Positions 11,010 through 30,970 of a stretch of DNA of 32,023 nucleotides are shown here, in pieces. The stretch comes from Candidatus Galloscillospira excrementipullorum (GTDB taxonomy: Bacteria; Bacillota; Clostridia; Oscillospirales; Feifaniaceae), in contig DVNV01000021.1 of NCBI GenBank assembly GCA_018714125.1, positions 1 through 32,023 of the forward strand. The letters run 5' to 3'. Each line of letters begins with the position of its first letter. Within the stretch, counting starts at the first letter, position 1. The notes under the pieces were generated by a model. It ran no database searches, was not told the DNA's origin, and saw nothing but the letters and a program-made list of their open reading frames with translations. The translations under genes were made by a program, and so were the position numbers.

Positions 11010-12116
11010 CTAATCCACTCTCAGGCGAACCGGCAAAATGAGAAACAGAAACCTGTCGTCCTCCATGGGACGCAGCACCATGGGCGCAAGGCTTGTGGCA
11101 AGCTGCATGCGCACCTCGCTCTCGCCCGTGTTTTTGAAGGCGTCGAGCAAAAAGCGGTTGTTGAAGCCAATCTCCAGGGGAGGCTCGTTGTAGTCGAGCA
11201 TGAGCTTGTCGCTCACGCTGCCGATGGGGGTCACGCAGGTCAGCTTCATCTCCCCGTTTTGGAAAAAGAGCCTCACGGGGGAACGCTGTTTTTCACTGAT
11301 TAAGAGGGAGGCGCGGTCAAGGCAGTCCAAAAACTCCTTGACGTTGACCGTTAAGGTGAACATGGGAATCTTGGGGAGGGCGTTTTTGTAGTTGAGAAAC
11401 TCCCCTTCGATGGTCCGCGTGACAATCACGATGTTTTCGCTTTCAAACACCACGCTGCGCTTCGAGGGCCAGATGGTGACTTCGGTGTCGCTGTCGGTCA
11501 AAATGCGCGAGAGCTCAAGCAGCGTCCTTCCCGGCACCACAAACTGCATGGGCTGCTCCACCGGAACTTGCAGCTTCTCCCTGCGGATGGCCAGACGATA
11601 GCCGTCCACCCCCACCACCTCGAGCTCGTCGTCCTCCAGATGGAAGAGGCACCCGGTGTGCACCGGCTTGCTGTCGCTCTGGGAGACCGAAAAAACAGTC
11701 TGCAAAATCATGGAGCGCAGCGTCTTCTGGTCCATGGAAAAGCAAAAGCTCTCCTTTTGGAAGTTGACGGGCGGATAATTCTCGGCCCCGATGCCGATGA
11801 GGTTGAACACCGAATATCCCGCCGTGATGGTGACTTCGTCGCCCTCCGTCTCCACAAAGACCTCCCCTTCGGGCAGCTTTTTCAAAATGTCGCTGAAGGT
11901 GGAGCAGGGCAGCACAAATTCGCCCGTGTCCTTTGTCTGCGCGGGAATGGAGCAGCGAATGCCGGTTTCCATGTCGTACCCCGTCAGCTGCAGGCAGCCG
12001 GGTGACAGGGAGAGCAGCAGCCCTTCCAGAACCGGAAGGGAGGAGCGTCCCAAAACAGCGCGGGAGGCGGTGGCTACCCCTTGCGCCAAAACGGCGCGGT
12101 CGCAGGTGAATTTCAT
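11010..12116 (-). CDS. dnaN: DNA polymerase III beta sliding clamp
   Basis: A 368-residue protein matching the usual clamp length and starting MKFTCDRAVLAQGVATASRAV. The three repeated clamp domains are recognisable, and the C-terminus ends in the typical PVR segment (LILPVRLRVD). It forms the ring that tethers polymerase III and recruits repair and initiation regulators. ATG 12116 follows AAGGAGG with about 10 bases between. It is downstream of dnaA across the presumed origin. Confidence 0.97.
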   Translation of the reverse strand: MKFTCDRAVLAQGVATASRAVLGRSSLPVLEGLLLSLSPGCLQLTGYDMETGIRCSIPAQTKDTGEFVLPCSTFSDILKKLPEGEVFVETEGDEVTITAGYSVFNLIGIGAENYPPVNFQKESFCFSMDQKTLRSMILQTVFSVSQSDSKPVHTGCLFHLEDDELEVVGVDGYRLAIRREKLQVPVEQPMQFVVPGRTLLELSRILTDSDTEVTIWPSKRSVVFESENIVIVTRTIEGEFLNYKNALPKIPMFTLTVNVKEFLDCLDRASLLISEKQRSPVRLFFQNGEMKLTCVTPIGSVSDKLMLDYNEPPLEIGFNNRFLLDAFKNTGESEVRMQLATSLAPMVLRPMEDDRFLFLILPVRLRVD

Positions 12117-12234: not shown

Positions 12235-12445
12235 TTCAATGAAGGATATATCAAAACAGTAGCAGCAGTAGGGGGTGTGGAAGCTGTGGAAAAGGGGAAT
12301 TTTCCCTTCCGGGAGGTGGGAAAAGGGGCCTTTTTGGGATGGGGACAGACTGTGAAAAAAACGGGGAAACTGCTTTTTGTCTGAAAGAGGGCCGGGGCAT
12401 GGGTGGAAAAGCCCTTGTGGAAAACATTTCTTTTGTGGAAAACCT
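12235..12445. other. Candidate replication origin (oriC) between dnaA and dnaN
   Basis: The 407-base dnaA-dnaN gap has no gene. It has an AT-rich stretch (12235-12256), five trinucleotides CAG-TAG-CAG-CAG-TAG (12257-12271) resembling DnaA-trios, a GGGG cluster (12272-12275), and two abutting DnaA-box-like 9-mers, TGTGGAAGC (12276-12284) and TGTGGAAAA (12285-12293). Further boxes TGTGGAAAA lie at 12416-12424 and 12434-12442, 18 bp apart in phase; GGTGGAAAA is at 12402-12410 and TGTGAAAAA at 12351-12359. All face the same way. The boxes differ from TGTGGATAA by one base. The order trio, G cluster, box matches the unwinding module described for B. subtilis oriC. Confidence 0.65.
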
Positions 12446-13870: not shown

Positions 13871-14106
13871 AGTCGTCTCCCTCTATAACAATAGGTCAGT
13901 CTTTCCTTTATAGCCTATTATATCTCTATATATAAGTATAATATAAATTATAGCATAGAAGCATCCTGATTGCAACGAAAACACCGGAGCCGGCCTCTGC
14001 CCTCTTTCCTGAAAAAGGCCCAAAATATAAATATAAATCGTTTTAAAAAGACAAAAAAATACAAACAGTTTTTTTTAATCTCCCTTTTTTCCGGCCGGAA
14101 GAGAAA
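13871..14106. other. Gene-free AT-rich dnaA upstream region
   Basis: Apart from the dnaA promoter this stretch contains two AT-rich blocks (13908-13953 and 14022-14077) and a CCGGCCGG palindrome near 14092. No DnaA-box-like sequence was found here, so the AT-rich blocks could serve as a secondary unwinding region but are not diagnostic. Confidence 0.4.
13947..13975 (-). promoter_or_regulatory. dnaA promoter
   Basis: On the minus strand, -35 TTGCAA (13975-13970), a 17-base spacer and a perfect -10 TATAAT (13952-13947) precede dnaA by about 77 bases. The leader between them is very AT-rich. Confidence 0.72.
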
Positions 14107-14154
14107 AAAAGCCCCCGCCTTCTGATAGTTCCCATAGGTACATTTTCTGAACCT
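14107..14154 (+). repeat. Left inverted repeat bounding the accessory island
   Basis: This 48-bp segment matches the reverse complement of 20274-20324 in three blocks: a 16-base block AAAAGCCCCCGCCTTC (14107-14122), a 12-base block CCCATAGGTACA (14131-14142), and TGAACCT (14148-14154). The spacers differ by a few bases. Compared with the right copy it lacks the final palindrome arm, and similarity stops abruptly at 14154, a likely junction. Confidence 0.75.
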
Positions 14155-14171
14155 TGTGAATTGTCAGGCAC

Positions 14172-14201
14172 ACAGGCGGACAGCTTCCGCTGTCCGCCTG
14201 T
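14172..14201. terminator. 13-bp perfect hairpin
   Basis: Arms 14172-14184 and 14189-14201 pair perfectly around a TTCC loop, just inside the left island boundary and downstream of the minus-strand response-regulator remnant. No strong U-tract follows in the minus direction. Confidence 0.5.
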
Positions 14202-14207
14202 TGTGTT

Positions 14208-14395
14208 TTATGCCAGCAATCGCTTGATTTCTTCAATATCTGTATCCAGAATGATGATGTCATAGATACCGGAAAGCGCGCAGTCCAGGCCGTATTCTCC
14301 GTCGTGTGCCAGATCGACAATGTAGTTGTTTTTTTCTAAAACCTGCGCACAGCCTGCGCCATGTATTCTTCATCTTCCACCAGCAAAATCCGCAT
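14208..14395 (-). pseudogene. Response-regulator receiver remnant (frameshifted, truncated)
   Basis: From ATG 14395 the frame reads MRILLVEDEEYMAQAV, the start of an OmpR-type receiver domain, then stops after a one-base loss. In the next frame it continues AQVLEKNNYIVDLAHDGEYG and reaches the phosphoacceptor region IIILD. There the usual MLPxxDG is replaced by TDIEEIKRLLA and a stop. So both a frameshift and an internal deletion have destroyed it; no DNA-binding domain or partner kinase is nearby. It is evidence of decay inside the island. Confidence 0.72.
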
Positions 14396-14418
14396 ATTCC
14401 GCTGCCACCTTTCTGAAA

Positions 14419-14604
14419 TCAATTCAGTATAGCGGTCAAACCTTTAAGAAACCTATAACCACTCAAATGTTGTAGAGAATCATAACCGCAGTCTACCAAG
14501 ATCACATCCCTGTTACCGAACAGTACCACGGGGTGCAAATGCTGCTGCATTTTCTGAAAAGTATAACATAGGTTCAGCACCTGATATCGTTTATCCAATG
14601 ACAT
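14419..14604 (-). pseudogene. N-terminal remnant of an MBL-fold hydrolase
   Basis: About 60 residues. The first 42 resemble the start of a metallo-beta-lactamase-fold hydrolase: a strand, then PVVLFGNRDVILVDCGY. The metal-binding HxHxDH motif is absent, because the frame then runs into unrelated residues and stops. The start overlaps the end of the upstream GNAT gene (ATG 14604, or GTG 14607). Probably nonfunctional. Confidence 0.5.
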
Positions 14605-15061
14605 CACTCCTTAACCGAGCTGGAGACTGATAGATGCGCATGGTTTCGCCGTCTTCACTTTTCGCCATGCATATAAATTCCCAATCGTATCGTTCATAAA
14701 ACGAAGTATGATCCGTCAGCAGATACAGGGTATGGATATTCCATTTTACCATATCATCGCATACAAATTGAAGCAATCTACCGGCAATTCCTTGCTTCCG
14801 CCATGCTTCCTCCACAAATAATGCACACAGATTGGGGGAGATATCTTTCCTGTCATGAAAGTCATTTTCGATGACACCAACACCTCCGATGATTTCTGCC
14901 TGGTGGACGGCAAGATACCATTGGGGAATCGCGGTATTCCTCTCCAAACACGCAAGCATACTTTCTTCATACGCCGCTTGGGGAACACCCCATTTTGCAT
15001 GGAACCATGCGGCAGCTTTTTTGATATATTCTCTGTGCTCTCTGAGCATTAAGATTTCCAT
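14591..15061 (-). CDS. GNAT family N-acetyltransferase
   Basis: A 156-residue protein with the GNAT acetyl-CoA loop RKQGIAGRL, preceded by the LCALFVEEAWR beta-strand/helix, and a C-terminal SFYERYDWEFI segment typical of the fold. It would transfer acetyl from acetyl-CoA to an amine or peptide; the acceptor is unknown. AAGGAGG stands some 12 bases before ATG 15061. It is 17 bases after a second acetyltransferase gene, so the two form one transcript. Its base composition is AT-richer than the flanking core genes, consistent with acquisition. Confidence 0.85.
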   Translation of the reverse strand: MEILMLREHREYIKKAAAWFHAKWGVPQAAYEESMLACLERNTAIPQWYLAVHQAEIIGGVGVIENDFHDRKDISPNLCALFVEEAWRKQGIAGRLLQFVCDDMVKWNIHTLYLLTDHTSFYERYDWEFICMAKSEDGETMRIYQSPARLRSDVIG

Positions 15062-15078
15062 AACAACACATTGCCTCC

Positions 15079-15501
15079 TTAGGACAAGGTTTTATACATC
15101 CATATATGCGGGCAGTATTCTTCCAGAAACTCCTGTCCTATTGCTGTATATCCTTGCTTTTCGTAAAACTCTTTTACACGAACCCGAGCGGCAAGAAACA
15201 GTTTATTTGCTTTTGATGCAATCACTTGCTTTTCGCATTCTTGGACAAGCATCAGACCCAGAGACTGACCACGGAAGGCTTTTCGGACTGCAACTCTTCC
15301 CAGAACATAAGAGTTTCTCTCCTGGTCCCAATAAAAGCGGCAGGTTCCAACCGGAACTTCTCCGTTGAACACCACAATATGCCGAGCCTGATGGTCGATC
15401 TCATCAAACTCCTCCACAAACCCCTGCTCCTCCATAAATACTTCCTTCCGGATCGATGCGGCCTCTGTCGGCAGTGCAGGATATACCTCCATGTGTAACA
15501 T
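15079..15501 (-). CDS. GNAT family N-acetyltransferase, ElaA-like
   Basis: A 140-residue GNAT with the N-terminal pattern RKEVFMEEQGFVEEFDEIDHQARH typical of the ElaA/YjcF group (in sequence: RKEVFMEEQG then DEIDHQA), the acetyl-CoA loop FRGQSLGLML, and the terminal EFYEKQGYTAIG. Its substrate is unknown. GGGGGA is 8 bases before ATG 15501. It is the first gene of a two-gene acetyltransferase operon. Its leader contains a terminator-like hairpin, so read-through may be regulated. Confidence 0.85.
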   Translation of the reverse strand: MLHMEVYPALPTEAASIRKEVFMEEQGFVEEFDEIDHQARHIVVFNGEVPVGTCRFYWDQERNSYVLGRVAVRKAFRGQSLGLMLVQECEKQVIASKANKLFLAARVRVKEFYEKQGYTAIGQEFLEEYCPHIWMYKTLS

Positions 15502-15525
15502 ATCTGTTCCCCCTTATATAAAAAT

Positions 15526-15584
15526 AAGCATTGAAACCTATTCCTTCCGCAATTGCGGCCCTGACAGAACTGGCTTCAATGCTT
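15526..15584 (-). promoter_or_regulatory. Attenuator-like leader hairpin of the GNAT operon
   Basis: On the minus strand the 13-base arm 15584-15572 pairs with 15538-15526 (one G-T), enclosing a second perfect palindrome, CCGCAATTGCGG (15547-15558). A T-rich run, ATTTTTAT, follows immediately. It lies between a promoter and the first codon, the layout of a transcription attenuator. Confidence 0.5.
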
Positions 15585-15632
15585 CCGATGTCTAACCCCG
15601 GGGAGTAAGACAAGCATACAATATTTTCTAAG

Positions 15633-15661
15633 ATTCTACTATAGCTACCGCAAAAAATCAA
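15633..15661 (-). promoter_or_regulatory. Promoter of the GNAT operon
   Basis: On the minus strand, TTGATT (15661-15656), 17 bases, TAGAAT (15638-15633). The leader to ATG 15501 is about 125 bases. Confidence 0.55.
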
Positions 15662-15779
15662 GTGTTTATGGATGTCCTTTGGGGACAGTTCTATGCAGCG
15701 ATCTTTACGATTTGTCTATTCCCATCAGCCCCAACAAATGATATAATCAAAAAATATTGAATGAAAGGAGCGTGTTTTT

Positions 15780-15875
15780 ATGAAGAGCATGAACACAAGA
15801 GATGGATATTGGGAGAAAATGGGCGGTCATCGGGATACGGGTTGTATTTGTACTGTTTACCAAGTAAAATCATAA
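15780..15875 (+). CDS. Possible 31-residue small ORF
   Basis: ATG 15780 follows AAAGGAG with 8 bases between and opens a 31-codon frame (start MKSMNTRDGYWEKMGGH). A TATAAT at 15732-15737 lies upstream without a clear -35. I do not recognise the peptide; it may be a truncated gene start, as residues in another frame follow to 15961. Confidence 0.3.
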   Translation: MKSMNTRDGYWEKMGGHRDTGCICTVYQVKS

Positions 15876-16018
15876 ACAGAAACCATAATTCAATCTATCT
15901 TCGTCCTTTCGTCCGGTTTTACATGACGGATCAAAAGAAAGAAATATGTGCTGCCACATGACTTTGGGCAGGGACATGATCTGAACAAAATCTATATGTA
16001 TAATAGTCACTTCACAAG

Positions 16019-16047
16019 TTGACGAACCGAAGATTGTCTGATAAGAT
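16019..16047 (+). promoter_or_regulatory. Promoter of the CNNM transporter operon
   Basis: TTGACG (16019-16024), 17 bases, TAAGAT (16042-16047). It gives a leader of about 190 bases before TTG 16242. Confidence 0.5.
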
Positions 16048-16084
16048 ATGGAACATTACAATGAAAGGAGAAGGTCTTCAACTT

Positions 16085-16177
16085 ATGGATGACGGTGACA
16101 GTAACGCCCCCGCCAAGCCTCCCTCGTACAATTATGAACAGAATCGAATGAGACATGGCCTGTACTTTCGCGAATAA
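16085..16177 (+). CDS. Possible 30-residue leader peptide
   Basis: ATG 16085 follows GGAGAAGG by about 10 bases and encodes 30 residues starting MDDGDSNAPAKPPSYNYEQ, ending 64 bases before the transporter start. It lies wholly inside the predicted leader. After it a short GACA/TGTC hairpin is followed by T5. It could be an upstream ORF affecting expression; no homolog is recognised. Confidence 0.3.
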   Translation: MDDGDSNAPAKPPSYNYEQNRMRHGLYFRE

Positions 16178-21051: not shown

Positions 21052-22293
21052 TCAGTGCTTGCCGGCGCCCGGACGCACGGCGCGGGGGTTGTAGTTTTTG
21101 CGCAGCGAGGAGTTTGCCGCAAGGGCCAGCGACGCCATGGCAAGGCAGATAAACCCGAGATAGATGGGCCAGACGATGTCATAGGAGCCCGACATGTCAT
21201 ACAGGGCGCCGGTGATGGAGGGGCCAAAGCTCGAAAAGATGCCCGAGAGCATGGAGGAGATGCTGTAGATGGCCGAAAACTCCCTGGCGCCAAAGTTTTC
21301 AATGACCAAAAAGGAGGCGGGGACGGTGCCGATGGAGTAGCCAAAGCCAAAACAGACGGCAAAGACAAAGGGCATGATGGCAGAGCCCCGGCACAGCATG
21401 ATGGAGACCAGGGAGGCCACCATGCAAAGGCCGGACAGGATGGCGGCCCTTGCCGCGCCGACGCGGTCAAACACGGCGCCCAGCGCGATTTTGGCAAAAA
21501 TCATGACCACCATGACAACGCTGGACACGGCGGAGGCCGTGGCGGCCGAATAGCCGGTGTCGGTGAGGCAGGAAATTACATGGGGGTTGGTGCCCATGGT
21601 GGTGGCGCCGAAAACGGCGATGCCAAAGGCGGTCATGTAAAACTCGGGGGATTTGAGCGCCTGCTTTTTGGAGATGCCCACAGGCTCAAGGGGCTTTGCG
21701 TCCGGCGAGGTGCCGGAGTGGTTGTCAAGCGGGGTGAGGCCCATGTCGGAGGGCTTTTCGCGCAGCAGCACAAACACCGAGACAAAGAGCACCGCAAAGC
21801 CGGTCACGGCCAGCAGGCGGTAGCCCCAGCGCCAGCCGACATTCTGCACCACGCTCGAGAGGATGGGCGTCATGATGGCGGCCGTCACGCCCGAGCCCGA
21901 ATAGGCAAGCCCCATGGCAAGGCCCTTTTTGTCCACAAACCAGTTGCTGACCAGCGAGGCGATGGTCACGGTCAAGATGGGGGTCGACAGGAGGCCGTAA
22001 AGGACGGCCAGAGCGTAAAAGTGCCACAGCTTTGTGGCAAAGGAATAGCCCAAAACGCAAGAGCACACCACAAAAATGGAGACGCGCGAAAAGGGCAGCA
22101 TGGGGTATTTCTGATAGAGGTTTCCGTAGACCACCTGCATGAACATGCCGACGAAAGAGGCAATGGAGGCATAGAGCGTGAAGGCGCCGCGCGTAAAGCC
22201 GAGGTCTTCACAGACGGGCTTGATGAAAATGCCGTTGCAGTTGACAAACAGGCCGATGCTGGTGCCCATCATGAGAGCGCAGCCGAGAACCAC
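21052..22293 (-). CDS. MFS transporter, OFA-like; 5' end out of frame
   Basis: The open frame encodes 413 residues beginning inside the first membrane segment (MVLGCALMMGTSIG). Compared with its neighbours it lacks the FYGW start. Upstream, ATG 22354 (AAAGG 9 bases before) reads MQEKLSPP. If the C8 tract (plus-strand G8, 22331-22338) had one base fewer, it would continue GRPKLFYGWIVVLGCAL into this frame. So the full gene spans 21052-22354 and is frameshifted, by phase variation, mutation or sequencing error. It keeps the interdomain FAKIALGAVFDRVG motif. Substrate unknown. Confidence 0.8.
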   Translation of the reverse strand: MVLGCALMMGTSIGLFVNCNGIFIKPVCEDLGFTRGAFTLYASIASFVGMFMQVVYGNLYQKYPMLPFSRVSIFVVCSCVLGYSFATKLWHFYALAVLYGLLSTPILTVTIASLVSNWFVDKKGLAMGLAYSGSGVTAAIMTPILSSVVQNVGWRWGYRLLAVTGFAVLFVSVFVLLREKPSDMGLTPLDNHSGTSPDAKPLEPVGISKKQALKSPEFYMTAFGIAVFGATTMGTNPHVISCLTDTGYSAATASAVSSVVMVVMIFAKIALGAVFDRVGAARAAILSGLCMVASLVSIMLCRGSAIMPFVFAVCFGFGYSIGTVPASFLVIENFGAREFSAIYSISSMLSGIFSSFGPSITGALYDMSGSYDIVWPIYLGFICLAMASLALAANSSLRKNYNPRAVRPGAGKH

Positions 22294-22330
22294 AATCCAG
22301 CCGTAAAAGAGCTTGGGACGCCCCGTTGCC

Positions 22331-22338
22331 GGGGGGGG
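22331..22338 (-). other. C8 homopolymer at the frameshift of the MFS gene
   Basis: Eight consecutive C (minus strand) in codons 6-8 of the MFS gene. Seven would restore the frame. Such tracts are typical sites of slipped-strand variation and of sequencing error. Confidence 0.7.
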
Positions 22339-22395
22339 AGAGCTTTTCTTGCATGGGGTTCAGCCTTTCTTTTTTTATTTTTGTTCGCAAAAAAA

Positions 22396-22425
22396 AGTAT
22401 ATCATGGCGGCAAACGGCAGCACAA
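22396..22425 (-). promoter_or_regulatory. Promoter of the frameshifted MFS gene
   Basis: TTGTGC (22425-22420), 18 bases, TATACT (22401-22396) on the minus strand. The same gaTATACT with an 18-base spacer recurs before the next MFS gene. Confidence 0.5.
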
Positions 22426-22490
22426 GAGGGTTTGAGAACTATACGCAAAGATAAAACAGAAAGGCCGGGCGCCGGCCCGAAAGGGCAGGC

Positions 22491-22528
22491 AAAAAAGGGC
22501 AGCCTTCCCATCGGGAAAGCTGCCCTTT
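22491..22528 (-). terminator. Intrinsic terminator of the MFS gene at 22559
   Basis: The arms AAAGGGCAGC and GCTGCCCTTT (22494-22528), with an inner CTTCCC/GGGAAAG stem, are followed on the minus strand by a T6 run. Confidence 0.8.
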
Positions 22529-22558
22529 CAAGAAAAAGCAAGGCGGGAAAAAATATTT

Positions 22559-23836
22559 TTAATAGCGGCTGTAGCCCTTTTGACGGCTGATTTTGGCGGC
22601 TGCCGTCAGCGAGACCGTGGCGGCCACCGACACAACAATGTAGATGTTCCAGACATTCACATAGCTGCCAAAGAAGTCATACAGCGTGCCCGACAGCGAG
22701 GGGGCGTAGGAGTTGCCCAGGCTGGAAATCATGCTGGCAAGGCTGTAGATGGCGGCAAATTCACGGGTGCCGAAGTTTTGGCCGATGAGGTAGGAGTAGG
22801 GCACCGTGAGGGTCGAGTAGCCAAAGCCAAAGCACAGCGAGAAGACATAGGGCATGAAGGAGCCGACGCCGGCAAAGCGCAGGGCCACCACCGACGCCAG
22901 CATGCAGATGCCGGTGAGAACGGCCGACGGGACGGGGCCGATTTTGTCAAACACGGCGCCCAGCAGGATTTTGGCAAAAATCATGACCGTCATGACAAGG
23001 CTCATGGCGGTGGAGGCCGTGAGCTCGGAATAGCCGATGTCGGTCAGATAGGCAATCACATGGCCCGACATGCCCATGCCGGCCGTTCCCAGGCACAGCA
23101 TGCCCAGAATCTGGAGGTAGAAGGCAGGGGTTTTGACGGCCTGCCTGCGGGTGATGCCGGTCTGCTGCAGCACGGGGATGTGCGGGGTGTTTTCGCCAGC
23201 CCCTTCCCCGGGCTTGACGCCGTAGGGCAAAAGGCCCTTTTCGGCCGGGGAAACGCGGATGAGCAGCACGGCCGGCACCAGCAGGCAGAGCGACACCAGG
23301 CTCATGGTGCGGTATCCCATGCGCCAGCCGAAGTCGGCCACGATGGTGGAGAGCACCGGCGTCATGACGGCGGCCGAAACGCCCGAGCCCGCAAAGGCCA
23401 GCCCGGTGGCCAGGCCGCGCTTTTCCACAAACCAGTTGTTGATGAGCGTGGTGATGGAGATGCCGGCCAGCGTCATGGAGCCGGTACCGTAGAAAGCGGC
23501 CAGCGCGTAGAAGTGCCACAGCTTGGTGGACAGCGAATAGCCGTAAAACGCGCCGCAGCAAATGACCATGCCAAGCGCAATGAATTTGCGGATGTGCTGC
23601 GGATACCGGCGGTAGAGCTCGCCGTAGGCCAGCATGGCGAACATGCCCACAAAGCCGCCGATGGTGGAATAGAGCGTAAAGGGCCCCCGGTCAAAGCCCA
23701 GCTCCTCGCACACCGGCTTGACGAAAATGCCAAGGCAGTTGACGAAAATGCCGGTGCCGGCCGCCACCAGCAGCGTACAGCAAAACACAATGACCCAGCC
23801 GTAAAAGAATTTCTTTTTGGTTTTCGTTTGTTGCAT
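22559..23836 (-). CDS. MFS transporter, OFA-like
   Basis: A 425-residue, 12-segment carrier starting MQQTKTKKKFFYGWVIVFCC. It is closely similar throughout to the product of 24002-25288 (shared GTGIFVNC, GIFVKPVCE, FGFGYSTLTVPYSYLIGQNF), pointing to tandem duplication. The motif-A-like KILLGAVFDKIG lies between segments eight and nine. The family exports or exchanges organic anions; the substrate is unknown. It has its own promoter and terminator, so it is probably monocistronic. Confidence 0.9.
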   Translation of the reverse strand: MQQTKTKKKFFYGWVIVFCCTLLVAAGTGIFVNCLGIFVKPVCEELGFDRGPFTLYSTIGGFVGMFAMLAYGELYRRYPQHIRKFIALGMVICCGAFYGYSLSTKLWHFYALAAFYGTGSMTLAGISITTLINNWFVEKRGLATGLAFAGSGVSAAVMTPVLSTIVADFGWRMGYRTMSLVSLCLLVPAVLLIRVSPAEKGLLPYGVKPGEGAGENTPHIPVLQQTGITRRQAVKTPAFYLQILGMLCLGTAGMGMSGHVIAYLTDIGYSELTASTAMSLVMTVMIFAKILLGAVFDKIGPVPSAVLTGICMLASVVALRFAGVGSFMPYVFSLCFGFGYSTLTVPYSYLIGQNFGTREFAAIYSLASMISSLGNSYAPSLSGTLYDFFGSYVNVWNIYIVVSVAATVSLTAAAKISRQKGYSRY

Positions 23837-23878
23837 GGTTGTTTCTGCCTTTCCTTTTTAAAATGAGCCGCAAAAAAT

Positions 23879-23908
23879 AGTATATCATAAAGGGCAGGCT
23901 TCAAACAA
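23879..23908 (-). promoter_or_regulatory. Promoter of the MFS gene at 22559
   Basis: TTGTTT (23908-23903), 18 bases, TATACT (23884-23879) on the minus strand. Confidence 0.5.
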
Positions 23909-23944
23909 GCTCTTGTTTTTTGACTTTTTTGTGAAGAAAGAAAA

Positions 23945-23982
23945 AGAAAGCGGAGCCCGGCGCCGCAAGGCGCACGGACCCC
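23945..23982 (-). terminator. Probable terminator of the MFS gene at 24002
   Basis: A GC-rich stem around GCGCC-TTGC-GGCGC, imperfect further out, is followed on the minus strand by a pyrimidine run CTTTCTTTTTCTTTC. Confidence 0.5.
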
Positions 23983-24001
23983 GCCCGAAAGGGAAAAAGA
24001 A

Positions 24002-25288
24002 TCAGCGATACTGGTAGCCCCTGTCCTGCGCCGTCTTGGAGGCCAGGAACAAAAAGGTAAGCGCCAGGCAGGCCAGCACGAAATAAATCGTCCAAACCGG
24101 GTAGTAGGAGCCAAGCCTGTCATACAGCATACCGGTGAGAGTGGCCGCAATTCCGCCGCCCAGGCTTCCCAGGGTGCAGATCAGCGAATAGATGGAGGAG
24201 AATTCGCGGGTGCCGAAGTTTTGGCCGATCAGATAGGAATAGGGCACGGTCAGCGTGGAGTAGCCAAAGCCAAAGCACACGGAGAAGACATAGGGCATAA
24301 AGGCGCCTGCGCCGGCAAAGCGGATGGACAGCGTGGAGGCAATCATGCAAAGGCCGGTCAGAATGGCAGAGCGCACACTGCCGATTTTGTCGAACACGGC
24401 GCCCAGCAGGATCTTTGCGCCGATCATGATGGTCATGACAAGGCTCATGGCGGTCGAGGCCGTGAGCGGAGAATAGCCGATGTCGGTAAAATAGGAGATG
24501 GCGTGGTTGGAGATGCCCATGCCGGCCAGGCTCAGACAGAAGATGCCGATGGACTGGAAATAAAACGAGCTGGTCTTGACGGCCTGCGCGCGGGTGAGGC
24601 CGGTCTGCTCAATCACGGGGATCGACCGCTTGTCCTCCTCCGAGGGATGGGGCGTTACGCCATAGGGCAAAAGGCCCTTGTCAGACGGTTCAAGACGGAT
24701 GAGCAGCATGGCCGGGATCAAAATGATAAAGCTGACCAGGCTCATGGTGCGGTAGCCCATGCGCCAGCCGTAGTCGGTGACAACGGTGGTGAGCACCGGC
24801 GTCATGATGGCGGCCGAAACGCCCGAGCCGGCAAAGGCCAGGCCTGTGGCCAGCCCGCGCTTGTCGACAAACCAGTTGTTGACAAGGGTGGTCACCGAGA
24901 TGCCGGCCAGCGTGGTGGCCACGCAGCCGTAAATGGCTGACAGCGTGTAAAAGTGCCACAGCTTGCTCGACAGGGAATAGCCGAAAAAGACCAGGCAGCC
25001 GGTCAGCCCGCCGATCGCGATATACAGTCGGATGCGCCGTGGTTTTTTGCGGTAGAGCTCGCCGAACACCAGCATGGCCAGCATGCTCAGGACGCTGGTG
25101 ATGGTAGTGTAGAGCGTGAAGGTCCCTCTTTCAAAGCCCAGGTCTTCGCAGACCGGCTTGACAAAGATGCCGACGCAGTTGACAAAGATACCGGTGCCCA
25201 CGGCCATGAGCAGCGTGCAGCACAGCACGATAATCCAGCCGTAGAAAAATTTTTTGGGCGCCTTTTTGGGGGTTGCGGTTTGCTGCAT
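24002..25288 (-). CDS. MFS transporter, OFA-like (tandem paralogue)
   Basis: A 428-residue, 12-segment carrier, beginning MQQTATPKKAPKKFFYGWII. GGGAGG lies 6 bases before ATG 25288. Its interdomain loop (about 195-225) carries a charged PSEEDKRSIPVIEQTG segment, the region most different from its paralogue at 22559. It lies 367 bases downstream of the kynureninase gene and has its own candidate promoter, so co-transcription is uncertain. Confidence 0.9.
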   Translation of the reverse strand: MQQTATPKKAPKKFFYGWIIVLCCTLLMAVGTGIFVNCVGIFVKPVCEDLGFERGTFTLYTTITSVLSMLAMLVFGELYRKKPRRIRLYIAIGGLTGCLVFFGYSLSSKLWHFYTLSAIYGCVATTLAGISVTTLVNNWFVDKRGLATGLAFAGSGVSAAIMTPVLTTVVTDYGWRMGYRTMSLVSFIILIPAMLLIRLEPSDKGLLPYGVTPHPSEEDKRSIPVIEQTGLTRAQAVKTSSFYFQSIGIFCLSLAGMGISNHAISYFTDIGYSPLTASTAMSLVMTIMIGAKILLGAVFDKIGSVRSAILTGLCMIASTLSIRFAGAGAFMPYVFSVCFGFGYSTLTVPYSYLIGQNFGTREFSSIYSLICTLGSLGGGIAATLTGMLYDRLGSYYPVWTIYFVLACLALTFLFLASKTAQDRGYQYR

Positions 25289-25655: not shown

Positions 25656-26945
25656 TCAGGCAATGCTGCCAATTTTGTTTTCGTACTGTTCGTATTCACG
25701 CGTCTCCATGATGCGGATGATGCGCTCCACCATCTCGTAGATGTCCTCATACGAGGTATAGAAGGCGATGGGCGCCAGGCGGATGACGTTGGGGAAGCGG
25801 AAGTCGGGCACGATGCCGTTGTGCTTGATGGCCTCGTTGATGCGGATGGCATCGTCGTGCTCCAGCGCCACATGGCCGCCGCGCTTGGCGTCGTCCCTGG
25901 GGTTGCCCACCGAAAAGCCGTATTTGGTCAGCTTCTCGTCAATCAGATACATCAGGTAGGCCGTGAGGTTGAGCGACTTCTCACGCACGGTCTGGATGTC
26001 GGTCTCCCCATACAGCTTCAGGCTGCCGAAGATGGGCGCCATCGACAAAATGGGCTGCGTTCCGGTCTGCCAGCCCGAGGCGCGCAGCTCGTGCTCAAAC
26101 TCAAGGCGCAGCTCAAACTTGGTGTCGGCGCGGTTGCCGTGCCAGCCCGAGAGGCCCGGCTCGCAGGCAAAGTGCCTGCGGTTGATGTAAAGGCCCGCCA
26201 CCGTGCCGGGGCCGCCGTTCATGTACTTGTAATTGCACCACACGGCAAAGTCGGGGTCGATTTTCTTGAAGTCGTGCGGCACCGAGCCGATGGAGTGGCA
26301 CAGGTCAAAGCCAATCACAATGCCGCGCTCACGCGCAGCCTTGGCAATTTTTTCCATATCGACGAGCTGTGCGCTGCGGTAGAGCACGCTGGGCAGCAGC
26401 GCCAGGCAGACGTCGTCGGTAAAGGCGGCGATGACGTCGTCCTCGTTGATGAGCTTTCCGTCGCGGCTTTTGACGAACTTGAGGCACTGCTCGGGGTCGT
26501 AGCCGTGCAGGCGAATCTGGCTTTTGACGGCATAGTGGTCGGTGGGAAAGTTGAGATCGTCCATGACGATTTTGTTGCGCTCCGGCGTGGGATGATAGAA
26601 GGTGGCCACCGCCTGATGGATGTTCATGGTGGTGTTGGTGGACACCGTGACCTCATCGGCGTCGGCCCCGATGAGCTTTGCCAGGCCGGCACCCAGCGTA
26701 TCCTGATAGTCGAAGTAGGCAGTGCCGTCGGCACAGGGAGCCGACCACAGGCCGATGCCTTCGTTTTTCCAGGTCTCCAGAGCTTCAAGGACGTATTGTT
26801 CGGCGTCCTTGCTGCACAGGCCAAGGGAATTGCCGTCCATGTAAATGAGGCCCTCTTTTACATAGAATCTCTCTTTGAAATGACGCATGGGATCGGCGCT
26901 GTCGAGGGAGCGGGCAAATTCGCGGGTGGGTTCAAAGTGTCTCAT
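25656..26945 (-). CDS. kynU: Kynureninase
   Basis: A 429-residue fold-type I PLP enzyme. It hydrolyses kynurenine to anthranilate plus alanine (or the 3-hydroxy forms). MDGNSLGL is at 36-43, FDLCHSIGS (Asp214, His217) is at 213-221, and the PLP lysine is Lys240 in NYKYMNGGPG. WHGN and the substrate-site region follow. The length matches bacterial kynureninases. ATG 26945 is fixed by AAAGGAG 8 bases upstream; the frame extends to 27038 without a ribosome site. No tryptophan dioxygenase, formamidase or other pathway gene is in the window, so it probably acts on imported kynurenine. MFS genes flank it on both sides. Confidence 0.93.
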   Translation of the reverse strand: MRHFEPTREFARSLDSADPMRHFKERFYVKEGLIYMDGNSLGLCSKDAEQYVLEALETWKNEGIGLWSAPCADGTAYFDYQDTLGAGLAKLIGADADEVTVSTNTTMNIHQAVATFYHPTPERNKIVMDDLNFPTDHYAVKSQIRLHGYDPEQCLKFVKSRDGKLINEDDVIAAFTDDVCLALLPSVLYRSAQLVDMEKIAKAARERGIVIGFDLCHSIGSVPHDFKKIDPDFAVWCNYKYMNGGPGTVAGLYINRRHFACEPGLSGWHGNRADTKFELRLEFEHELRASGWQTGTQPILSMAPIFGSLKLYGETDIQTVREKSLNLTAYLMYLIDEKLTKYGFSVGNPRDDAKRGGHVALEHDDAIRINEAIKHNGIVPDFRFPNVIRLAPIAFYTSYEDIYEMVERIIRIMETREYEQYENKIGSIA

Positions 26946-27101
26946 GGCAAAATCTCCTTTCGTGTATTGGGAAAAAGACTGTGCCGTACCGCAGGGGGCG
27001 CCTACGAAAGGCGGACCGATGCCCCGTGCCTGCCGCACAGGCCGTGCAGGGCAGGGCTCCAGCCGGCAAGGCCGGCAAAAAGGGAGCCTGCCCGGGGAAA
27101 T

Positions 27102-28358
27102 CTATCTGTACTTGTAGCCCTCGCGCGCGCAGCGCGCCGCCGCAAAGGTCAGCGCCAGCGTGCAGACCACAGACAGAGCGAGATAGATGAGCCACACCGT
27201 GAGGTAGCCGCCGGTGGTGTCAAACACCATGCCGGAGAAGGGAGAGCCCAGGGCGCCGCCGATGCCGGAGGGCATGGTGCACAGGCTGTAGACGGCGGAA
27301 AACTCGCGGGTGCCGAAATTCTCCCCCACCAGATAGGCGATGGGAACCGACAGCGTGGCGTAGCCAAACCCGTAGACAAAGGCAAACAGCCACGGCATGA
27401 GGGGGGAGGAGCCGGCAAACAGCAGCAGCAGCACCGACAGCAGGAGCGACAGCCCCGTCAGCAGGCTGGTATACACCGGGCCAACGCGGTCAAACACGGC
27501 GCCCAGCACCACCTCGGCCAGCACCAGGGCCCACATCACCGCAGCCTGTACCGAGGAGGCGGTGGCGGAGGAGTAGCCGATGTCGGTGAGGTAGGCGATG
27601 ATGTGGGGCGTCATGCCCATGCCGATAAAGCTGACCAGCGTCAGCCCCAGCGTAAAGGCCCAGTAGGCGGGGGTTTTGACGGTCTGCGCCCGGGTCAGCC
27701 CCGTGGGCTGCCAGGTTTTGAGGTCCTTTGTCGACTGCTCGGCGCCGAGCGGCAGGAGGCCGCGCTGCGCCGGGCTCTCGCGGATGAAAAACAGGATGGC
27801 CGTGAGATAGAGGAAAAGCCCGGTGCCGGCCATGAGGCGGTAGCCCATGCGCCAGCCGTAGAGCTCGACGACCCGGGTGGCAATGGGGGTCATGATGGCG
27901 GCCGAGACGCCGCAGCCCGCCCAGGCCAGTCCGGTGGCCAGCGCCTTGCGCGACAAAAACCAGTTGTTGATGACGGTGGCGATGCCAAGGCCGGCCGTGG
28001 TGGTGGAAAAGCAGCCGTAGAGCGCGCCAATCACATAAAAGTGCCACAGTTTTGTGGCAAAGGAATAGCCGAAGATGCAGGCGCTGAGAATCAGCGAACC
28101 CAGCAGCATGAGCTTTCGGGCGGGGTAGCGCCGGAAGAGCTCGCCCCACAGCATGATGGTGCAGATGGAGGCAATGCTGCTCATGGTGTTATACAGGGTG
28201 AAGGCGCCGCGCGAGACATTCAGGCTTTCGGTGACGGGCTTGATGAAGATGCCGGCGCAGTTGGTAATCAGGCCGGTTGAGGCCCCGATGACGATGGAGC
28301 ATCCCAAAACCACCACCCAGCCGTAGTAGAACGGTTTTTTGGCCGTTGTTGTCTGCAT
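27102..28358 (-). CDS. MFS transporter, OFA-like, upstream of kynureninase
   Basis: A 418-residue, 12-segment carrier beginning MQTTTAKKPFYYGWVVVLGC. ATG 28358 is placed by homology to the paralogues. GGGGGA lies 11 bases upstream, while the open frame continues to 28517. It ends 156 bases before the kynureninase start on the same strand, so the two may share a transcript; that gap contains no obvious terminator. This makes it the likeliest partner of kynureninase as a kynurenine importer or anthranilate exporter, by inference only. A TACAAT -10-like sequence lies near 28423. Confidence 0.88.
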   Translation of the reverse strand: MQTTTAKKPFYYGWVVVLGCSIVIGASTGLITNCAGIFIKPVTESLNVSRGAFTLYNTMSSIASICTIMLWGELFRRYPARKLMLLGSLILSACIFGYSFATKLWHFYVIGALYGCFSTTTAGLGIATVINNWFLSRKALATGLAWAGCGVSAAIMTPIATRVVELYGWRMGYRLMAGTGLFLYLTAILFFIRESPAQRGLLPLGAEQSTKDLKTWQPTGLTRAQTVKTPAYWAFTLGLTLVSFIGMGMTPHIIAYLTDIGYSSATASSVQAAVMWALVLAEVVLGAVFDRVGPVYTSLLTGLSLLLSVLLLLFAGSSPLMPWLFAFVYGFGYATLSVPIAYLVGENFGTREFSAVYSLCTMPSGIGGALGSPFSGMVFDTTGGYLTVWLIYLALSVVCTLALTFAAARCAREGYKYR

Positions 28359-28528
28359 GACGCAAAAGTCCCCCTGCCTTGGTGTGCTTGCTCTGCCGGA
28401 AGATGCCGGCAGGTACTTGTATTGTAGCATGGGGATATCCCAAAGGGAAGAGAAAAGCCGCAATTTTGTCGGATGATTCCAAGGGGGCAGGCAGGCCCGG
28501 CGCGCAAAGGGGGCCAAAGGGCCAAAAG

Positions 28529-28759: not shown

Positions 28760-30031
28760 CTAGCGGATGACGTCGCAGCCCATATAGGGGCGCAGCGCCT
28801 CGGGAACGGTGACGCTGCCGTCTTCATTCTGGTAATTTTCCAGGATGGCGGCCACCGTGCGGCCGACGGCCACGCCCGAGCCGTTGAGCGTGTGCACGAA
28901 CTGCGCCTTGTCCTTGGGGGTGTTCTTGAAGCGGATGTTGGCGCGGCGGGCCTGGAAGTCGGTCATGTTGGAGCAGGAGGAAATTTCGGCATAGCGGTTG
29001 TAGGAGGGCAGCCAGACCTCGATGTCGTAGGTCTTGGCCGAGCCAAAGCCCATGTCCCCCGTGCACAGCACCACCGTGCGGTGAGGCAGGCCGAGCTGCT
29101 GCAGCACATATTCGGCGTCTGCCGTCAGGCTCTCGAGCTGCTGGAAGGAGTCGTCGGGATGGGCAAATTTCACCAGCTCCACCTTGTTGAACTGGTGCTG
29201 GCGGATGAGGCCGCGCGTGTCGCGCCCGGCAGAGCCGGCCTCGGCGCGGAAGCAGGCCGAATAGGCGCAGTATTTGAAGGGCAGCGCCGAGCCGTCCACG
29301 ATGGATTCGCGGTGGTAGTTGGTCACGGGCACCTCTGCCGTGGGAATCAGATAGTAGTCAAGCCCCTCGAGCTTGAACATGTCCTCGGCGAATTTGGGAA
29401 GCTGTCCCGTGCCGAACATGGAGTCCTTGTTGACCATGAAGGGCGGGAAGACCTCGGTGTAGCCGCGCGAGGTGTGGGTGTTGAGATAGAAGTTGATGAC
29501 GGCGCGCTCCAGACGCGCGCCAAGGCCCCGGTAAAAGTGGAAGCGCGCGCCCGTCACCTTGGCGGCACTCTCGGGGTCGAGAATGCCCAGGTCGCGGCCG
29601 ATGTCCCAGTGGGGCTTGGGCTCGAAGGAAAAGCTGCGCGGCTGCCCCCAACGGCGCACCTCGACGTTGTCGTCCGAGTTCGCGCCCACCGGCACCGAGG
29701 CGTCGGGCAGGTTGGGAATGCGGGCCAGCAGGTCGGTGATTTCGGCGTCCAGCACGGCCAGCTTGGCGTCGTCCTCCTTGATTTTGGCCGAGAGCTCGGC
29801 CATCTGCGCCATGAGCGCGTCAACCGGCTGCCCGGCCTTTTTCATGGCCGGAATCTGGCGGCTGGCCTCGTTTTGACGGGCCTTGAGCTGCTCGTTGTCA
29901 AAAATCAGGGCACGGCGCGCATCGTCGCGCTGCAAAACGGCGTCGATGTCGGCGTCATAGCTTGTGCCACGGTCGGCAAGACGGGTTTTGACGTAATCGG
30001 TTTGATTGCGAATGAGTTTGATATCGAGCAT
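28760..30031 (-). CDS. serS: Seryl-tRNA synthetase
   Basis: A 423-residue class II synthetase that charges tRNA-Ser. The N-terminal coiled-coil arm (about 30-100) clasps the tRNA. TAE is at 231-233, motif 2 [14 protein letters not shown] at 261-274, and motif 3 [16 protein letters not shown] at 383-398. The length is normal. ATG 30031 follows AGGAGG with a short spacer. It is 69 bases after parB on the same strand, a frequent Clostridia order (parA-parB-serS), probably one transcript. No T-box leader fits in the gap. Confidence 0.97.
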
Positions 30032-30100: not shown

Positions 30101-30970
30101 TCAAAGCTCCACCGGCAGCCCAAGCTGCTCCAGCAGGGCGCACAGGTCCTGATTGTCATAGTATTCGATTTCGATGCGGCCCTTTTTGGCGCCGGGACGA
30201 AGCTGCACCCTGCGGCCCAGACGGCCCGAAAGCGCCTCCCCGAGCTGCCGGGCATAGAGGTCTTTTGCGGGCTCGGGCGCGGGGCTCTCCCCTTCCCTGC
30301 CCGCCTTGGCGGCGGCAGACGCCAGCCGTTCGAGCTGACGCACCGACAGTCCCTGTTCACAGGCCTGAAGCGCCAGAGGCAGCGAGACGCTTTCGTCAAG
30401 CCCCACCAGCGCGCGCCCGTGGCCCTCGCTCAGCGCGCCCTCCTGCACCATGTCCTGAATGGTCTTGGGCAGCGAGAGCAGCCGAAGCGTGTTGGCGACG
30501 GCCGAGCGCGAGCGGCCCACCCGGGCGGCCACCTCCTCCTGCGTGAGGGAAAATTCGTCCATCAGCCGGCGGTAGCCCCCCGCCTGCTCCATGGGGTTGA
30601 GGTCTTCCCTTTGCAAATTCTCAATGAGGGCCACCTCGAGCACCCCCTGATCCTCCAGCTCCTTGAGCTGAACCGGCAGCTCGGTCAGCCCGGCCAGCCG
30701 GGCCGCGCGCCAGCGCCGCTCCCCGGCCAGCAGCTGATACCGGCCGTTTCCCATATCACGCACCAGCAGGGGCTGCAGCACGCCGTAGCGGGAGATGGAG
30801 TCGGCAAGCTGCTGCAGCTTCTCCTCGTCAAACTCCCGGCGGGGCTGGTCCTTGTTGGGCTCAATGGCTGACAACGGCACCATGCGCAGCCTTCCGCCCT
30901 CGACCTCTATGGAGCTTGCGTCAAAAAGAGCGTCGAGGCCCATGCCAAGTCCGCGCCGTGGTTTTGTCAT
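30101..30970 (-). CDS. parB: Chromosome partitioning protein ParB (Spo0J)
   Basis: A 289-residue CTP-dependent DNA clamp that loads at parS and organises the origin. The N-terminal segment is TKPRRGLGMGLDAL. The CTP-binding box is GERRWRA at 83-89, with ENLQREDLNPMEQA from 117. The parS-reading helix-turn-helix lies at about 141-164 (LTQEEVAARVGRSRSAVANT). The C-terminal dimer domain is at the end. ATG 30970 has GGGAGG 8 bases upstream and is preferred to GTG 30979. The linker at about 235-255 is Gly/Glu/Pro-rich. Confidence 0.96.
   Translation of the reverse strand: MTKPRRGLGMGLDALFDASSIEVEGGRLRMVPLSAIEPNKDQPRREFDEEKLQQLADSISRYGVLQPLLVRDMGNGRYQLLAGERRWRAARLAGLTELPVQLKELEDQGVLEVALIENLQREDLNPMEQAGGYRRLMDEFSLTQEEVAARVGRSRSAVANTLRLLSLPKTIQDMVQEGALSEGHGRALVGLDESVSLPLALQACEQGLSVRQLERLASAAAKAGREGESPAPEPAKDLYARQLGEALSGRLGRRVQLRPGAKKGRIEIEYYDNQDLCALLEQLGLPVEL

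Follow-up and report, generated by a model that had tools for sequence, protein, structure and literature searches.

The window very probably carries the bacterium's chromosome origin in its dnaA-dnaN gap, where we predict a basal unwinding system (BUS) of the kind described in Bacillus subtilis. Here, the window is the whole stretch of DNA analyzed, 32,023 bp, which is the entire contig G000:C4; the assembly has 99 contigs and 1.61 Mb. The elements of the gap, their order and spacing, their conservation, and the trio-reading residues of the partner DnaA were all observed directly and are described below. The element is a further example of a widespread and known type of origin; predicted BUS-like origins were found in 1755 of 2070 species (85%) in a published survey (PMC8287927). 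It adds a clear BUS for a genus that is represented by draft genomes only.

The genes around the gap fit an origin region. dnaA and dnaN are both on the minus strand and co-directional, with 407 nt between them. The window DnaA aligned from end to end with the protein of structure 8btg (phmmer E 3e-110), which we take, partly from its residue numbering, to be B. subtilis DnaA. We take the next open reading frame to be dnaN from its place after dnaA rather than from a family search; relatives of dnaN were found 3' of dnaA in 131 of 150 dnaA loci of the order. Family matches identified neighboring genes for a RemA-like protein, an S4-domain protein, parA and parB, and other neighbors are presumably recF, gyrB, gyrA and serS, based on reading of the open reading frames. 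An Rfam search of the window gave no match. Elsewhere in the window, four large minus-strand open reading frames (21052-25288 and 27102-28517) look by eye like paralogous MFS transporters, and a kynureninase-like gene (25656-27038) splits the series.

The gap has the parts of a BUS in the expected order. Read on the minus strand, which is the strand of the element and the sense strand of both genes, the gap runs TTTTCCACA, GCTTCCACA, CCCC, CTA CTG CTG CTA CTG and TTTTGATATATCC, as verified base by base (Table 1). Trio 1 is 13 nt from box A. On the plus strand the tandem boxes read TGTGGAAGC (12276-12284) and TGTGGAAAA (12285-12293), and this is the strand that DnaA would capture, on which the trios read 3'-GAT-GAC-GAC-GAT-GAC-5'. 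The AT-rich DNA at 12235-12256 is presumed to be the region of unwinding and helicase loading. An earlier note on this DNA had reported five trinucleotides with a central A, CAG-TAG-CAG-CAG-TAG, which we confirmed at 12257-12271. It had also claimed the B. subtilis order for the gap, and this held for the AT-rich DNA, the trios, the GGGG and the tandem boxes, but no second cluster of boxes turned up within 600 bp upstream of dnaA. Its description of the boxes as a variant of the standard box is fair and unremarkable, as TTTTCCACA is one mismatch from TTATCCACA.

Table 1. Features of the predicted origin and its flanking genes (window coordinates).
Feature	Position	Strand	Sequence or product	Remark
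dnaN	11010..12116	-	beta clamp, 368 aa	position after dnaA
AT-rich DNA	12235..12256	.		directly past the trios; GC 0.23 vs 0.57 in the window
Five DnaA-trios	12257..12271	-	CTA-CTG-CTG-CTA-CTG	+ strand CAG-TAG-CAG-CAG-TAG
GC-rich 4-nt spacer	12272..12275	-	CCCC (+ strand GGGG)	spacing kept in the genus
BUS DnaA box B, trio-proximal	12276..12284	-	GCTTCCACA	abuts box A; 3 mismatches to TTATCCACA
BUS DnaA box A, upstream member of the pair	12285..12293	-	TTTTCCACA	1 mismatch to TTATCCACA
Weak DnaA-box-like site	12351..12359	-	TTTTTCACA	2 mismatches
Distal DnaA box	12402..12410	-	TTTTCCACC	2 mismatches to TTATCCACA; 117 bp from box A
Distal DnaA box	12416..12424	-	TTTTCCACA (+ strand TGTGGAAAA)	131 bp from box A
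Distal DnaA box	12434..12442	-	TTTTCCACA (+ strand TGTGGAAAA)	149 bp from box A, centre to centre
dnaA	12524..13870	-	replication initiator, 448 aa	PF00308, E 6.6e-69

The published definition of a BUS comprises a DnaA box with at most two mismatches to TTATCCACA, an optional weaker tandem box with at most four mismatches, a spacer no longer than 16 bp, and a run of three or more NAN trios (PMC8287927). All of the published sequence features are present in the window gap: box, tandem box, spacer, at least three trios with a central A, and location in the origin region. The BUS score of the gap was 24.7, and the best of 40 dinucleotide shuffles reached 13.3 (z 9.4); a second run with 30 shuffles gave z 11.7; the score is home-made and was weighted after gaps had been read, and the z-values against shuffles are descriptive.

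A simple-sequence repeat that resembles trios by chance is an exceedingly unlikely explanation of the CAG/TAG run. Short CTG-type runs do arise by chance, and CCACA-N4-CTR-CTR-CTR occurs at two sites in the 1.61-Mb assembly, at the origin and once elsewhere (C2:36753), with none in the control. A chance repeat does not fit a BUS score far above that of the shuffles, nor a place, spacing and C-T pattern shared by all four genomes of the genus and by many other families of the order. The box TTTTCCACA had 48 sites genome-wide versus 32 in the control, and three of these are within 160 bp at the origin. Away from the origin, three boxes in a row (TTTTCCACA, TTATCCACA and TTTTCCACA) are found at G000:C36:53360-53389 (about bases 861-890 of L197), at a contig end with a probable rpsJ (by eye); this is a candidate site for titration of DnaA or for regulation.

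The element is conserved in the genus. We compared the window with three congeneric loci (L004, L005 and L006), in which DnaA is 96, 85 and 69% identical to that of the window. The trios, spacer, tandem boxes and upstream boxes were present in all four genomes, as the earlier note had proposed to check, even though mean column identity across the aligned gaps was 55% (MAFFT, independent of the trio score). Within the 15-nt trio block, C and T occupied the first two positions of all five trios in all four genomes, and the third base was only A or G (AGGAG, GAGAG, AGGAG and GGGGG). In the cryo-EM model of the B. subtilis BUS, DnaA captures two bases of each trio, the guanine and the central adenine, and Ile190 and Ile193 flank the third base (PMC10721633, in excerpt). 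Variation of the third base alone is as this two-base capture model predicts, at least as set out in those excerpts, and the freedom of the third base is thus seen among close relatives, in agreement with a structure that captures the first two bases. Based on the layout, the score against shuffles and the conservation in the genus, the proposal of an oriC candidate in this gap is borne out at the level of sequence. Points against reading the gap as an origin include the weak box B, with its three mismatches; the tandem boxes of L005, which are both weak (TTTTTCACC and TTGTCCACC); and the GC-skew minimum of the window, which is shallow and 3.5 kb off (see below).

The spacing of the distal boxes is also conserved. 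The earlier note had listed two further boxes 18 bp apart; both are present (12416-12424 and 12434-12442, 18 bp from start to start), and it overlooked a third at 12402-12410 and the weak site at 12351-12359. The three distal boxes face the same way and start at -171, -153 and -139 relative to trio 1 in the window, at -173, -154 and -140 in L004, at -168, -150 and -136 in L005, and at -172, -153 and -138 in L006. These offsets are constant within 3-5 bp across the four genomes while the intervening DNA is scrambled. The weak site TTTTTCACA was absent at the matching offset in L004, L005 and L006 and is probably outside the origin core. In B. subtilis, an upstream box is required, is active from 44 bp outward with helical phasing, and is proposed to act through a loop (PMC6669920, in excerpt). 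The window boxes, at 117, 131 and 149 bp from box A (centre to centre), all lie upstream by at least these 44 bp (PMC6669920). By analogy, the constant distal spacing fits an upstream-box role of the loop type, without proving it.

The residues of DnaA that read the trios are kept. In B. subtilis, N187, I190, I193, R202 and E228 contact or capture the trios, and alanine changes severely impair growth (PMC10721633, in excerpt). In the window DnaA, N187, I193, R202 and E228 are identical to those of B. subtilis, and I190 is replaced conservatively by V. The arginine of LRTRFEWG, taken as R264, is also kept, and domain IV has GRDHTTV as its DNA-reading motif. We take this motif to include E. coli residues 433-435, a numbering based in part on PMC5043019. 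We considered whether V190 is tied to GAC (CTG) trios. V was found in the CTA-only loci L007, L022 and L023, and I in the CTG-rich L049, so no I190V-trio rule was found.

By analogy with B. subtilis, the binding, loop, unwinding and helicase steps would proceed as follows. Domain IV of DnaA would bind the tandem boxes (12276-12293), and DnaA on the three distal boxes (12402-12442) would assist, probably via a DNA loop. From box B, ATP-DnaA would polymerize over the 4-bp spacer onto the plus strand, where domain III would capture the G-A pair of each 3'-GAT/GAC-5' trio and pull the strand out. The AT-rich DNA would then open toward dnaN, and the helicase would be loaded there.

The boxes might instead control transcription of dnaA and dnaN, with DnaA regulating its own gene and the trio-like repeat being incidental. 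DnaA has a second role as a transcription factor for dnaA (PMC8203912, in excerpt), and the boxes lie between two co-directional genes. However, they are downstream of dnaA, and the 400 bp upstream of the gene contain no box with one or fewer mismatches. Repression would also need neither trios that vary only in the third base nor a spacer fixed at 4 nt in all four genomes of the genus. We consider autoregulation alone very unlikely, and an origin of replication the better account of the gap.

GC skew agrees with an origin near dnaA in a congener and resolves it less sharply in the window. The earlier note had suggested skew as a check. In the congener G003 (scope: the first 53 kb of the 96-kb contig C12), the cumulative minimum was at 30,313 and trio 1 at 29,195, 1.1 kb apart. 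In the window, the minimum was at 15,735 (-544), 3.5 kb off, compared to -450 at 12,000 and -430 at 12,271, and the curve was flat between 12 and 16.5 kb. Because this minimum is shallow and broad, the skew of the window resolves the origin to a few kilobases only. The stretch at 14000-16100, beside dnaA, has a GC content of 0.43 (0.57 in the window) and two open reading frames that look GNAT-like by eye; its negative skew shifts the minimum off the origin. A clear skew turn was not found in a 20-kb stretch of G004.

The offset of the window minimum might also mean that replication starts at another site, such as one beside rpmH, and that the gap is a relic. rpmH is unlinked from dnaA in the genus: it is on another contig in G000 (C15), G003 (C11), G002 (C34) and G001 (C175), as it is in G004 (C51). 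In G015, another genome of the order, the two are linked, as its single contig starts with dnaA and has rpmH at its end, making them adjacent across the ends. Against an origin beside rpmH, no relic oriC1 cluster was found there: in none of the four genus genomes do the 600 bp before rpmH have more than two boxes (two or fewer mismatches). Additionally, the skew turn of G003 is close to its trios, and the trios are conserved. We therefore give almost no weight to an origin elsewhere and retain the dnaA-dnaN gap as the predicted origin.

The origin looks one-sided. In the genus genomes and G004, the 600 bp upstream of dnaA showed no box cluster (two or fewer mismatches): the counts were 1, 1, 2 and 1 in the genus and 0 in G004, compared to a chance rate of 1.56 boxes per 600 bp measured on the window. 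A cluster may lie farther than 600 bp upstream. We also looked at 25 other genomes of the order whose gap has two or more CCACA boxes and for which 400 nt of upstream sequence were available; 13 had no boxes upstream of dnaA and 8 had two or more. Since absence is common in this sample, the missing upstream cluster is not special to the genus.

BUS-like elements were found across the order. We searched 217 genomes, of which 199 had dnaA at E <= 1e-60. There were 150 loci with the dnaA end, 131 of them with dnaN after 19 without dnaN in reach were left out, and removal of L039, L051 and L143 (gaps below 90 nt) left 128 gaps to score. A BUS-like element was recognized at z>=5 in 61 of the 128 gaps and at z>=4 in 75; 53 were below z 4, and so the element is not recognized everywhere by this score. 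The low-scoring gaps may be due partly to box letters unknown to the score. Among the order gaps the letters differed by lineage: CCACA, CAACA, GAACA/AAACA and CCGCA. In two genomes of one genus (L045 in G025 and L166 in G144), the best BUS-like element is reversed and faces dnaA. The three loci left out (L039, L051 and L143, in G050, G008 and G080), from three genomes of one genus, have dnaA-dnaN gaps of 43, 3 and 10 nt, and their origin is probably elsewhere because the two genes almost abut.

We are evenly divided on whether, in the order, the BUS architecture has been kept while the box letters were repeatedly rewritten together with one residue of domain IV. On this reading, boxes change from TTTTCCACA to TTTTGAACA or TTTTAAACA where Asn, Ser or Thr stands at the position equated with E. 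coli Asp433, and G007, from the same family as the window, is among these cases; the window keeps the common pair, Asp with a CC box. Among the 126 of 128 loci with a readable residue, GA/AA boxes outnumbered CC boxes in 9 of 12 loci with N, S or T and in 8 of 114 with D or H (Fisher 2.7e-7, counting loci without correction for descent). Loci L105, L114 and L122 and the eight D/H loci count against co-change. On a FastTree phylogeny of DnaA with domain IV removed, six independent pairs on supported branches gave on average 4.8 same-way and 0.0 opposite changes (median sign-test p 0.06), so that the link is weak once descent is taken into account. The GAACA/AAACA boxes and the replacement of Asp in GRDHTTV by Asn, Ser or Thr occur together in L017, L020, L027, L028, L047, L048, L076, L084 and L133. 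T435S with CAACA boxes was a second candidate (14 of 56 versus 1 of 54 loci), yet only 0.4 of seven independent tree pairs changed the same way and 0.2 the opposite way, and this association is not supported. Outside the order, a search of 391 genomes of the class found TTTGAACA-N4-CTACTR in 16, where the spacer letters look random, and a stricter double-box GAACA pattern was found in none of 398 genomes of the phylum. Epsilonproteobacteria offer a precedent: the core of their box is shifted, and residues of domain IV are altered (PMC5043019, in excerpt). We found no literature on the DnaA box in Oscillospira and, judging by titles, none on the link between box and residue. If true, the co-change would be a natural series of switches in initiator-origin specificity; if confirmed, it would provide natural DnaA-box pairs for testing how box specificity evolves.

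In B. subtilis, the BUS is in the gap between dnaA and dnaN. The window origin resembles B. subtilis incC/BUS, as described in PMC6669920, PMC8287927 and PMC10721633, in its tandem boxes facing the same way, short GC-rich spacer, central-A trios on the captured strand, AT-rich DNA beyond them, conserved trio-contacting residues, and distal boxes more than 44 bp upstream (PMC6669920). It differs from B. subtilis in that three of the five trios are GAC, with C in place of T at the end, position 190 of DnaA is V, the distal boxes are 117-149 bp away rather than at 44 bp as for box 3, and the 600 bp before dnaA have no box cluster, whereas B. subtilis has one (PMC7561715, in excerpt). Clostridioides difficile oriC2 likewise has an unwinding region between dnaA and dnaN, in which a DnaA-trio lies next to boxes and AT-rich DNA. 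The C. difficile origin is bipartite, with clusters before and after dnaA that are both needed for melting in vitro (PMC7561715, in excerpt), in contrast to the window, with none within 600 bp upstream. Based on these comparisons, we conclude that the GAC trios, V190, the lack of an upstream cluster, and the distant array of three boxes are variations within the BUS kind.
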